A stretch of 60,203 nucleotides of DNA from a virus. The notes under the pieces were generated by a model. The model had not been told where the DNA came from. It made no database searches and saw nothing but the letters and a program-made list of their open reading frames with translations. A program made the position numbers and the translations under genes. This document shows, piece by piece, positions 2,960 to 60,175 of the stretch; position 1 is the first letter of the stretch; each line of letters opens with the position of its first letter. The stretch spans positions 1-60,203 of the IMG/VR virus record IMGVR_UViG_3300044624_002303; one strand, written 5' to 3'.

Positions 2960-3223
2960 ATGGGTGGCGATCAAGTTCTTAATAAGTTGATTGCTGGTTT
3001 CACCAATGATGGGACTCCTCTTTCTGCAACAATTGGTTCCAAGATGGAGCATGGTGTTGTCATCTTGACAGCAGCCATGCTTTCTAATGAAAACCTTGCT
3101 GCATCAATGCATGCAGAAGAAATGGTTGATGCCGCAATTAACTATTACAACATTATCCAACAACGTCTTGGTTACTACCAGCAGGATCAAGCGCATTCAT
3201 TAGAAAGGCTTCTAGGAAGTTAA
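2960..3223 (+). CDS. small hypothetical protein
   Basis: 87-residue protein preceded by GTAGGAGTCTC, a usable Shine-Dalgarno (GGAG) 6 nt before ATG. It starts a new cluster after a 34-nt gap that contains TACAAT (2933-2938), a plausible -10 box. Predicted mainly helical, no family recognised. Confidence 0.7.
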   Translation: MGGDQVLNKLIAGFTNDGTPLSATIGSKMEHGVVILTAAMLSNENLAASMHAEEMVDAAINYYNIIQQRLGYYQQDQAHSLERLLGS

Positions 3224-3765: not shown

Positions 3766-4128
3766 ATGGACACCACACAAGAACCTATAGACAGCGTTAA
3801 AAGCTGGCAAGATTGGTACCGCAAACACCGTATTGTTGCTCAAACGGACAAACCTTTAGAAGCCAAAGACTTACGCGAAAACATGCACGACACCACCAAC
3901 GCAGTTGAGACTTTGATCGACACTGATCCAAAAGCAATGTGGATTGAAAAAGCACGTGAGCATTTTGCTGACACACTTGCTGAATACCAATACGAATTGA
4001 GTGGTAAAGACTTCTACAAAGCTTTTTACCAGGCAGCAGTAGAAGCAATGGGCTATTCAGAAAAAGAATATCAACGCACCAAAGAACTGGTTGATATGCT
4101 GCGCTATCATCACCTTGGTCAAGACTGA
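3766..4128 (+). CDS. hypothetical protein
   Basis: 120 residues from ATG 3766; the frame is open from 3745 but that would start within the terminator stem. Mostly helical, charged, beginning MDTTQEPIDSVKSWQDW. The stop overlaps the next start (TGATG). No family recognised. Confidence 0.65.
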   Translation: MDTTQEPIDSVKSWQDWYRKHRIVAQTDKPLEAKDLRENMHDTTNAVETLIDTDPKAMWIEKAREHFADTLAEYQYELSGKDFYKAFYQAAVEAMGYSEKEYQRTKELVDMLRYHHLGQD

Positions 4129-7680: not shown

Positions 7681-7756
7681 GCACCTGGGTAGGAGTCGAA
7701 CCTACATCGTCCTGCAGCGGCAGTAACCGTCTTATCCAATTAGCTCGGACCAGGTG
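7681..7756 (-). tRNA. tRNA-like gene, isotype uncertain, abnormal anticodon arm
   Basis: A 7-bp acceptor stem (CACCTGG/CCAGGTG), a perfect T-arm (GTAGG-TTCGACT-CCTAC) and a D-loop with TTGG are present over 76 nt. The anticodon arm does not fold into 5 bp plus a 7-nt loop: the best pairing has a bulged A and a 6-nt CCGCTG loop without U33. The D stem is also only 3 bp. Overall it most resembles Arg-type tRNAs. It may be a decaying tRNA or one kept for a non-decoding role. Confidence 0.55.
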
Positions 7757-7757
7757 A

Positions 7758-20006: not shown

Positions 20007-20125
20007 TCAAACAACTACTTGCTTTGTTTCGCAAAAAACCACCTAAGCATTATCCACGTGTTGCGTGGTTGCGTTATTGTATAGAAAACCCTGACGCTCC
20101 AGGGTGTCGTATCTATGATGTCTAA
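20003..20125 (+). CDS. 40-aa protein ending CRIYDV
   Basis: Short basic N-terminus (MIKQLLALFRKKPPKHYPR) then AWLRYCIENPDAPGCRIYDV. Overlaps the preceding stop (ATGA) and the next start (TAATG). The Cys-x7-Cys C-terminal motif looks conserved-type and may be a small virion or assembly peptide, which is inference. Confidence 0.55.
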   Translation: MIKQLLALFRKKPPKHYPRVAWLRYCIENPDAPGCRIYDV

Positions 20126-20617: not shown

Positions 20618-21628
20618 TCAGTAATCCCAGCGTACGCGTGGTTTGCCTTCTCTAATACCAAGATGCACGAATCCTTTTGGTGCACCATAGCCTAGCGAGT
20701 AAGGCCAGTTTTTGTCACACCAGTCTTGCACAGTGTAGACACTGACCCCATCAACGTAAAAGTCGATAGCTCCCTTGGAAGGAGCGCTGTAAGTGTGCTC
20801 ACTGTTTTTAGCACCTCCTACTTGTGCATTGATGGGTTCTGGACGAGAAGCACTGGTAATGATCAATGGCTTGTTACCAAACTGCTTACGTACTTTCTCA
20901 AGGAATAAACACAGTTCTTTTGCTGTGTCGCATTGATATTGCTTGGTAAAACGCCGAGCCTCCTGATTCAAAGTTAATTCACCGTACGTGATGTTAGGTG
21001 TGATCTTGTACGTGAATGGGCTCCAAGGATTGAAATTGTTGTTGTGTGGGTTGGCATCTTCTTTTTCTCCAATGTTTTGGAGTTGTCGATCCATGATCTG
21101 AATCAACTTGGTGGCGTAGTCAGGATCAGTTGCGTAGCCTTCTTTTACCAGTAAACGAGCGCATTCATTCCTGCTAGAGGCACGGTTTACGCCTTTAAAA
21201 CGCCCAAAGTCTTTGTACCAGCGATCAACAAGGTAACAAACACAGGTCTGTAGGTCGGGAAAATCAATAAAACCAGCTTTGATTGTGACCCATTGACCGT
21301 TGATGAATTCTTGAGTACTGACGTTAGAGCCCGATCCTTTTAAACCAAAGTAGTTGTTTTTACCAGATGTGTGTTTACCCCAGCCTGACTCAAGCGCCCA
21401 CTGTGCAGCAACACATTCAGGCCATTTAGCACCAGCTTGTTTTGCTGCTGCAAGAACACCATCCCAAGTGTTGGCGGTTTCTGGTTGAGGTTTTGGTTTA
21501 TTGCGGTATTTAACAGAAAAGAACTCCAGTGTCTCAGGTGTCAACTGAGATTGGAGCCATTCCCATGCGTCAATTTGATGCGGTTCTTCTACAAAAAACT
21601 TAGCAGCGTCCGTAAGTTTGATTGGCAT
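20618..21628 (-). CDS. two-domain endolysin: glucosaminidase + M15 peptidase
   Basis: 336 residues. The N-terminal domain (about 50-190) is a glucosaminidase: WPECVAAQWALESGWGKHTSGKNNYFGLKG holds the catalytic Glu, with YLVDRWYKDF and YATDPDYATKLIQIM further on. The C-terminal domain (about 215-336) is an M15-type peptidase: ITSASRPEPIN, VGGAKNSEHTYSAPSKGAIDFYV (zinc H and D) and FVHLGIREG (zinc H). It would cut both glycan and peptide bonds of peptidoglycan. A likely lysis enzyme, though no holin is adjacent. One of four wall hydrolases in the window. Confidence 0.88.
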   Translation of the reverse strand: MPIKLTDAAKFFVEEPHQIDAWEWLQSQLTPETLEFFSVKYRNKPKPQPETANTWDGVLAAAKQAGAKWPECVAAQWALESGWGKHTSGKNNYFGLKGSGSNVSTQEFINGQWVTIKAGFIDFPDLQTCVCYLVDRWYKDFGRFKGVNRASSRNECARLLVKEGYATDPDYATKLIQIMDRQLQNIGEKEDANPHNNNFNPWSPFTYKITPNITYGELTLNQEARRFTKQYQCDTAKELCLFLEKVRKQFGNKPLIITSASRPEPINAQVGGAKNSEHTYSAPSKGAIDFYVDGVSVYTVQDWCDKNWPYSLGYGAPKGFVHLGIREGKPRVRWDY

Positions 21629-59499: not shown

Positions 59500-59535
59500 A
59501 CTAGGTATTTATACCCACGACTAGGTATTTATACC
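59500..59535. repeat. two tandem 20-bp repeats with GGTAT-TT-ATACC dyads
   Basis: ACTAGGTATTTATACC occurs twice at exactly 20-bp spacing (59500-59515 and 59520-59535). Each copy is an imperfect palindrome; the 20-bp period is close to two helical turns, so a dimeric regulator could bind both on one face. On the minus strand each copy reads TATAAATA. Located 115 nt before the 59650 gene. Confidence 0.6.
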
Positions 59536-59649: not shown

Positions 59650-59829
59650 ATGACTCAACGCATTGCAACCTACGTGATCATCGCTGCTTCCATCATGGGT
59701 ATTGGTGGGCAAGCCGTTATCTACTTCACAGATAAGGCAACTGCTCACCAATGCATTAACCATGACTGGCCTAAGGAGCATGACACACTCCACCGTAACT
59801 GGTGCATCACCAACGGTTACGACATCTGA
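59650..59829 (+). CDS. small membrane protein
   Basis: 59 residues, one transmembrane segment (residues 7-25, TYVIIAASIMGIGGQAVIYF) and a Cys/His-rich C-terminus. ACAACACC precedes the ATG. Its stop codon forms part of the first structured RNA element. No family recognised. Confidence 0.65.
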   Translation: MTQRIATYVIIAASIMGIGGQAVIYFTDKATAHQCINHDWPKEHDTLHRNWCITNGYDI

Positions 59830-59895
59830 GTCCGTTTAAGCGGCGTTCCAGGGTGCAATCCCCTGGTTCAGACTTGCCTACAGCAGAGATAGGCA
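59825..59895 (+). ncRNA. structured RNA element, copy 1
   Basis: Four helices. P1 is TCTGA/TCAGA (59825-59829, 59868-59872), containing the upstream TGA. P2 is CCG/CGG in GTCCGTTTAAGCGGC. P3 is CCAGGG/CCCTGG with loop TGCAATC, of T-arm shape. P4 is TGCCTA/TAGGCA (59875-59880, 59890-59895). It lies between two small genes, ending 19 nt before the next GTG. Covaries with copy 2. Confidence 0.72.
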
Positions 59896-59914
59896 CTGCA
59901 TACACGGAGTAACC

Positions 59915-60112
59915 GTGGACTATACCGTCAACATCATCGAGCGTAACGGTCAGTACTTCCTCCAAGAAGTCTTTGCAGTTACTGAGTTCCAGTATGTGGA
60001 ACAAGTGACTGCAGGTCCGTTCCAAGCTCGATGGCAAGCGGACGTGCAGCGCTCACAGGAGTACCCGGCATACCGGGGACTAACCGATGAGTACTGCCGT
60101 CTGCAACACTGA
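59915..60112 (+). CDS. small hypothetical protein
   Basis: 65 residues from GTG 59915 (CACGGAG upstream). Beta/alpha small protein, MDYTVNIIERNGQYFLQEVF. It lies between the two copies of the RNA element, whose second copy starts inside its last two codons. Confidence 0.6.
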   Translation: MDYTVNIIERNGQYFLQEVFAVTEFQYVEQVTAGPFQARWQADVQRSQEYPAYRGLTDEYCRLQH

Positions 60113-60175
60113 GTCCGTATAAGCGGCATTGGCAGGTGCAATCCCTGCCTTCAGTATTGCCACAACTCAGTGGCA
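60108..60175 (+). ncRNA. structured RNA element, copy 2
   Basis: P1 ACTGA/TCAGT (60108-60112, 60151-60155); P2 CCG/CGG in GTCCGTATAAGCGGC; P3 GGCAGG/CCTGCC with the same TGCAATC loop; P4 TGCCAC/GTGGCA (60158-60163, 60170-60175). P1, P3 and P4 differ from copy 1 by compensatory base changes. The next ATG follows 17 nt later. Confidence 0.72.

Follow-up and report, generated by a model that had tools for sequence, protein, structure and literature searches.

The window analysed here, that is, the whole stretch of 60,203 bases of one virus record, encodes terminase, major head, primase and endolysin genes, and within its last ~550 bases a row of small + strand genes begins and continues past the contig end. 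Two small ORFs of this row are each followed by one copy of a structured RNA element (Table 1), as an earlier note made from the letters of the DNA had described, and ATG 60193 may be the start of a third gene, cut off by the contig end. The first ORF had no PHROG match and no Pfam match above the cut-off, leaving it with no confident family, and the second matched neither PHROG nor Pfam. The first small gene of the array has, ~115 bp ahead of it, a tandem 16-bp repeat, ACTAGGTATTTATACC (window 59500–59515 and 59520–59535), with a near-palindromic core, resembling an operator or promoter region. Far from the array, on the − strand at 7686–7757 and just beyond tRNA-Pro, there is an extra tRNA-like T-arm (near 7702) with an acceptor; it was called by neither ARAGORN nor Rfam and is possibly a third tRNA or a fragment.

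The earlier note had based its case for a conserved structure on changes between the two copies, all of which we could reproduce. Helix P1 changes from TCTGA/TCAGA to ACTGA/TCAGT (one compensatory pair), P3 from CCAGGG/CCCTGG to GGCAGG/CCTGCC (four compensatory pairs around an identical TGCAATC loop), and the downstream hairpin P4 from TGCCTA/TAGGCA to TGCCAC/GTGGCA (two compensatory pairs), and in both copies the stop codon of the upstream ORF lies within P1. Missing from that description was the fold of the linker common to both copies, which itself forms P2 (CCG, a loop U..AAG, and CGG). At 0 mismatches the linker occurs in the window only at the two copies, the other four of its six matches carrying 2–3 mismatches.

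Table 1 Features of the small-gene row at the end of the window
Feature	Position	Strand	Details
Small ORF, 59 aa	59650–59829	+	from the ORF list; stop TGA 59827–59829 within P1 of copy 1
Copy 1, core	59825–59872	+	R1 match 59825–59877, E = 7e-21 (own sequence in model); R2 E = 6.5e-9
Copy 1, P1	59825–59829/59868–59872	+	
Copy 1, P2	59832–59834/59841–59843	+	loop UUUAAG 59835–59840
Copy 1, P3	59848–59853/59861–59866	+	T-loop UGCAAUC 59854–59860
Copy 1, elbow bases	A59839-G59840 with G59855-C59856	+	
Copy 1, discriminator-like C then UU	59873–59875	+	position fixed in element family; predicted cut between 59873 and 59874
Copy 1, P4 hairpin	59875–59895	+	UGCCUA 59875–59880, loop 59881–59889, UAGGCA 59890–59895
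Small ORF, 65 aa, GTG start, between both elements	59915–60112	+	from the ORF list; stop TGA 60110–60112 within P1 of copy 2
Copy 2, core	60108–60155	+	R1 E = 1.3e-22 (own sequence in model); R2 E = 1.5e-13
Copy 2, P1	60108–60112/60151–60155	+	
Copy 2, P2	60115–60117/60124–60126	+	loop UAUAAG 60118–60123
Copy 2, P3	60131–60136/60144–60149	+	T-loop UGCAAUC 60137–60143
Copy 2, elbow bases	A60122-G60123 with G60138-C60139	+	
Copy 2, discriminator-like A then UU	60156–60158	+	position fixed in element family; predicted cut between 60156 and 60157
Copy 2, P4 hairpin	60158–60175	+	UGCCAC 60158–60163, loop 60164–60169, GUGGCA 60170–60175

An RNA family with a covarying fold

The element belongs to an RNA family present in many viral contigs, isolated cyanophages (e.g. 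P-SSP7) and Prochlorococcus-family genomes. Its fold combines helix P1 with P2, a mini D-arm, and P3, a T-arm, and both P1 and P3 covary strongly. Scanning viral contigs for exact patterns gave no fewer than 174 distinct sites, among them many relatives with different arms but also some tRNAs or chance matches. Fifty copies were chosen for alignment A1 by their T-loop motif, P2 core and the TT after the element, a choice independent of the pairing of P1 and of outer P3. In this alignment 92.9% of pair cells were paired, and 200 cells carried double changes, compared with a mean of 67.5 after shuffling and a maximum of 62 for slid alignments; all five pairs of P1 covaried across the 50 sequences, and RNAalifold, run unaided, returned nearly the same fold. 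A P4 hairpin of at least 5 bp starts 1–2 nt past the N of the N-UU that follows the element (a discriminator-like base, then UU) in 138 of 143 distinct phage tails; 50 shuffles averaged 27.8 such tails and never exceeded 41.

Covariance model R1, which includes both window sequences, matched 90 loci at E up to 1, with 156 matches in all. These included copies with canonical tRNA T-loops (L054:5578 and, at E = 0.011, L289:5848 in Syn5) and four partial matches in L114, so that the possibility raised in the earlier note, of a model search that would find only these two copies, can be dismissed. The hold-out model R2, made from 53 matches (43 distinct; 50 from cyanobacterial genomes and three viral, L411, L424 and L425) with zero window sequences, recovered both window copies, the next-best match in the window having E = 0.26, as well as P-SSP7 (7e-7) and S-TIP37 (5e-5). 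At E up to 1, R2 left Syn5, S-RIP2 and 9515-10a unmatched; S-RIP1 was detected by the pattern descriptor and not by R1, with only a partial R2 match (E = 0.1). By these comparisons between copies, the fold of P1, P2 and P3 is well supported. Pattern matches were also seen in L293 (1434–1463) and L296, two low-coverage contigs of a non-cyanobacterial MAG labelled Ktedonobacteraceae; the former has a plausible P1 and T-arm, and both may be misbinned phage DNA.

The earlier note could match the element to no riboswitch, tRNA or terminator, and searches of Rfam, tRNA prediction and inspection for U-runs agree. At the Rfam gathering threshold the element was unmatched in the window and in 16 loci, and permissive searches gave only a chance snoRNA match at the window end (E = 3.4) and none in six loci at E up to 0.1; the element has no Rfam 15 family. 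ARAGORN called no tRNA in the 16 loci with or adjoining the element, nor at the window copies, and in place of a cloverleaf with an anticodon arm there is a gap of only 2–4 nt between P2 and P3. Unlike an intrinsic terminator, P1 is followed by only UU in window, phage and host copies, and P4 in the window has no U-run. The glutamine-II riboswitch (RF01704) was unmatched at the element and in the window, and had matches elsewhere in 9 of the 16 loci. A Syn5-type promoter was considered and set aside: ATTGGGCACC resembles the ATTGG..CACC after P1, where P4 pairs and covaries instead. In the open-access literature a description of the element was not found, the passages used coming from PMC3950665, PMC2518516, PMC4810234, PMC7479834, PMC1242208, PMC10989914 and PMC9692554.

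Likeness to the tRNA elbow

The T-loop is 7 nt long, takes the forms TGCRANN, TTCRAYT and ATCRAAT, and alternates with canonical tRNA T-loops. The ATCRAAT type goes with the P2 loop GUGA in 11 of 12 cases (UUGA in one) and TTCRAYT with a GGUG-containing P2 loop in 9/9, in a comparison for which the non-TGC rows were tabulated and the 72 TGC rows counted only. Read as tRNA positions 18–19 and 55–56, the bases of the P2 loop and T-loop of 43 distinct model matches are AG/GC (29), GG/UC (10), AA/GU (3) and CG/GC (1), the AA/GU class (L310, L319 and L325) turning G19-C56 into A-U. These counts were taken from an ungapped table, some of whose GG/UC rows stem from a pattern search for all four loop combinations; writing 19–56 as a bracketed pair is uninformative, as in the alignment the loop base is spread across several columns. 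That search, across 400 genomes, gave 23 AAG+TGC, 29 AGG+TTC, three AGG+TGC and no AAG+TTC, or 55 matches in 53 of the genomes with only three and zero in the crossed classes. Independent changes of the elbow are few, because most AGG+TTC copies are near-identical. R1 did not match the crossed AGG+TGC copies L502 and L504, nor the uncrossed L500, L501 and L503.

Elbow scans of viral sequences yielded distinct matches of the types AG/TC (31), GG/TC (30) and GG/GC (six), which by eye are mostly tRNAs or chance, and a filter for P1, P3 and N-TT was passed by two GG/TC (L411 and L436) and one AG/TC (L446). The last resembles, by eye, a tRNA-Ser variable arm. L411, L424 and L425 are R1 matches at E below 1e-12; L436 had no R1 match at 0.001.

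The element also keeps a regular spacing, with 12 nt from the T-loop to the end of P1, as in tRNA. P3, junction and P1 have a fixed total length, and N-UU comes at exactly +12 from the T-loop in 194 of 212 sites (102 of 118 distinct). Four of the 16 distinct exceptions match R1 (L019:6778, L141, L182 and L258), and the rest resemble tRNAs or chance. Among rows retained for having TT at +11 to +13, N-UU stands at +12 in 119/120 of phage class A, 12/19 of class B, 10/12 of class C and 11/22 of the host rows.

Mimicry of a tRNA T-arm, one of the ideas in the earlier note, therefore gains support and can be extended: P3 covaries beneath a 7-nt T-loop that alternates with canonical ones, the mini D-arm provides counterparts of the 18–55 and 19–56 tertiary pairs that covary at 55/56, if through few independent events, and the 12 nt from the T-loop to N73, with CCA absent after it, match the spacing of an RNase Z substrate. 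Taken as a pattern of sequence change, this strongly supports a minimal tRNA-elbow mimic without an anticodon arm.

Gene context in phages

Window copy 1 had no blastn matches among phages. A marine copy matched 34 records, all named cyanophages or uncultured phages, seven of which covered at least 80% of the query; many others matched only the module downstream of the element. In P-SSP7, S-TIP37 and S-RIP1, the element is unannotated and stands before the major head gene, in its leader, and in Syn5 it lies at 19.85 kb, with the head gene at 20,017. S-RIP2 and 9515-10a, reached by the same blastn match, were rejected, the fold being absent from this slot and neither R1 nor R2 detecting an element there. 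Both genomes have a different long hairpin (L285 ~3970–4010 and L286 ~2970–3005, respectively) with the common loop sequence CACCTCAGAGTCGGA and the same downstream module. The cyanopodoviruses L284, L188 and L288 share the order glutamine-II riboswitch, YRG mini-ORF, element; in P-SSP7 and L188 the mini-ORF with the YRG motif was seen by eye to lie between riboswitch and element and to end inside the latter. What the riboswitch controls in these three loci seems to be no more than the tiny peptide gene that precedes the major head gene.

R1 found 1–4 copies in each of 18 viral records, as a single cluster in most. In L054, seven elements alternate with eight small genes, and by eye a terminator-like hairpin stands solely after the last gene; arrays with a structured element per small gene, at roughly 260–280 bp, occur in L023, the window and L054. 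Among 134 distinct class A copies, 117 have their longest upstream ORF ending at +2 to +12 of the element, 78 of them in P1 (+2/+3) and 39 at the P2 loop or adjacent to it (+10 to +12). This overlap is partly forced, as stops in two of the frames belong to the conserved sequence itself.

Host copies and transcription terminators

A genome scan gave nine stretches, five of them in Prochlorococcus single-cell genomes. Within the family of one of these Prochlorococcus genomes, R1 matched 37 of 151 genomes (30 at E 4e-6 or better), and in a draw of 244 genomes from the phylum it matched 19, partly the same genomes and mostly weakly; both searches used stricter filters, which lose weak matches. The upstream gene in 21 of 26 regular-expression core loci encodes a small basic protein (MSQLTIK...FNRRRKK...PARRARRA) for which there was no confident Pfam or NCBIfam match. 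This gene family occurs in 44 of 61 genomes; it is multi-copy (L380–L407 and related host loci), with up to five matches per genome.

Thirty loci of the family were examined. Thirteen carry the element: in 12 of them P1 starts 5–21 nt past the stop codon, whereas in L398 it falls within the end of the ORF, so that the stop codon within P1, which the earlier note had made part of the element, is usual in phages but not essential. An intrinsic terminator was found within 330 nt at 0/13 loci with the element versus 12/17 without it (p = 8.7e-5, ignoring relatedness and using a home-made terminator scan); eight of these 12 terminators lie 22–29 nt and four 83–89 nt after the stop. In a separate count, one of 21 host elements had a terminator within 300 nt. 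From this contrast, the element seems to stand in for the transcription terminator in this host gene family. The two are not always exclusive, because in L310, L319, L325 and L333, which have other upstream genes, a hairpin was seen by eye directly behind the element, and a T-run follows that hairpin in three loci and a second hairpin in L325. The element in L310, L319 and L325 precedes a gene whose product starts with MSHQF.SGVFLHSQ..WH, with terminator-like hairpins between, and these loci are perhaps mobile elements in picocyanobacterial genomes.

We also sampled host tRNAs. CCA is encoded in 0/34, and the trailers, anchored on the T-loop (n = 34), start with U in 25 and C in nine; the N-UU of the element is thus compatible with host trailers and stricter than them, as only 12/34 have UU.

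A proposed 3′-end signal and its alternatives

Comparison among copies supplies the fold, the covarying elbow, the fixed spacing and the missing terminators of the host loci, and the element probably marks an mRNA cut or end, because the same fold seems to replace a terminator after the host gene. For a role at mRNA 3′ ends as such, we see roughly an even chance. The fuller reading, that a tRNA-elbow mimic defines mRNA 3′ ends, most likely through RNase Z cutting before the UU, falls a little short of even, and the identity of the enzyme is its least certain part. An RNase processing site had been among the suggestions of the earlier note; terminator replacement in the host family favours a processing or 3′-end role, with cleavage itself a prediction.

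In the proposed mechanism, an acceptor-like P1 would stack on the T-arm P3, at 12 nt from the T-loop to the end of P1 and with the anticodon arm absent, while the loop of the very short D-arm P2 would dock into the T-loop as in a tRNA elbow. The element would show where an mRNA unit ends on its 3′ side: in hosts after individual genes that lack a terminator, and in phages between the genes of polycistronic arrays. Host RNase Z, the enzyme of tRNA 3′ processing, would recognise the elbow and cut after the discriminator-like base, directly before UU. The stop codon would then stay on the upstream mRNA, whose 3′ end would be a tRNA-like cap, possibly CCA-tailed; the downstream mRNA of phages would start with U and the hairpin P4; and mRNAs could thereby be separated or stabilised. 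In effect, mRNA would receive tRNA punctuation in the absence of any tRNA. Published passages describe RNase Z as cutting after the discriminator, being suppressed by C there and binding the elbow, and a passage of a review gives it as single-copy in cyanobacteria.

Some observations run counter to RNase Z cutting. P4 starts 1–2 nt past the predicted cut in phages, and a hairpin so near disfavours easy access of the enzyme. The element N-UU is more uniform than the trailers of host tRNAs, TT stands at +12 in only 11/22 of the retained host rows, and L019:6778, L141, L182 and L258 are without N-UU at +12. In podoviruses, the constant position of the element ahead of the head gene would be equally compatible with a role as a 5′ leader.

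The identical elbow and 12-nt ruler would serve RNase P too, which recognises an acceptor/T-arm stack and cuts on its 5′ side, as in MALAT1; the upstream mRNA would then end just before P1. P1 opens with a G-C pair in 21 of 43 distinct sequences, mostly of the host set, and the host stop lies upstream; in a set made up mostly of phage sequences, however, the first pair is G-C in only 4/50 and unpaired in 12/50, although a G1-C72-type first pair is not an absolute requirement for RNase P. Such a cut in phages would also remove the stop codon, given that 117/134 upstream ORFs end at +2 to +12, and would leave the conserved UU without explanation. A cut at N73^UU would keep the upstream stop codon, and we consider an RNase P site rather unlikely. 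An uncut structure, in which the fold and P4 would block exonucleases or bind a protein and so stabilise or separate mRNAs with no endonuclease, agrees with a stable fold at gene ends, with the adjoining P4 hairpin and with the four loci that have a hairpin and T-run directly behind; we judge it unlikely, as the 12-nt spacing, N-UU and covarying elbow are explained less simply by it than by a tRNA-processing enzyme.

The element could also act on the gene downstream, as a leader structure or by translation coupling or re-initiation after the overlapping stop. Its position in the head-gene leader of P-SSP7, S-TIP37 and S-RIP1 points this way, as do the overlap with the stop in most phage copies and the next phage genes close behind; but host copies follow one gene family while the downstream content varies, and terminator replacement points to the 3′ end of the upstream gene. 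We judge regulation of the next gene, another idea of the earlier note, improbable, though least so in the podoviruses. A DNA-level recombination site building small-gene cassettes, like integron attC sites, would suit the small-gene arrays with a structured element each at ~260–280 bp (L023, the window and L054). It is nevertheless highly implausible in view of the G-U pairs in P1, the single copies before podovirus head genes and after the host gene, and the tRNA-elbow covariation, which is an RNA signature.

More tentatively, and at less than even odds, the RNase Z reading may be generalised: in picocyanobacteria and their phages, an anticodon-less mini-tRNA within the mRNA would recruit tRNA 3′ maturation (RNase Z, perhaps CCA addition) in place of a terminator, and phage rows with the stop codon folded in would have their polycistronic transcripts cut into single-gene mRNAs.

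Significance and comparison with known systems

The polymerase of Syn5 transcribes over 37 kb from one promoter, according to a passage in PMC3950665. If the element is a processing or 3′-end signal, it would help explain how separate mRNAs come from such >37-kb single-promoter transcription, and bacteria would offer an example of the tRNA machinery producing mRNA ends. It occurs beside the major head gene of isolated T7-like cyanophages and in genomes of the Prochlorococcus family, yet has no Rfam model, and it gives exact predicted cut positions in well-studied phages, between nt 20680 and 20681 in P-SSP7 (NC_006882.2) and between 19884 and 19885 in Syn5 (NC_009531.1).

Viral tRNA-like structures, such as the TYMV 3′ end, imitate the D-loop/T-loop elbow (passages of PMC4810234), as the element appears to do. 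Structures of the TYMV type lie at the 3′ ends of RNA-virus genomes, whereas the element is internal, ~50 nt long and part of DNA-phage or bacterial mRNA, with no anticodon-like arm and no pseudoknot seen. A D/T-arm module is also found in the bacterial Y RNA YrlA, an RNA of bacteria and phages; the element, in contrast, is without any Rfam match, the nearby riboswitch being separate. That riboswitch, glutamine-II (RF01704), is a neighbour in the podovirus leader, an upstream element of its own with a different sequence. In mitochondrial tRNA punctuation, real tRNAs stand between the genes of a polycistronic transcript; tRNA-shaped intergenic signals are common to both systems, while those described here lack an anticodon arm and an ARAGORN call. 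MALAT1, an animal nuclear RNA with the tRNA-like mascRNA fold at its 3′ end, is cut first by RNase P. The element would likewise place a tRNA-like fold at the end of a transcript, and its overlap with the stop codon argues for a predicted cut on the 3′ side.
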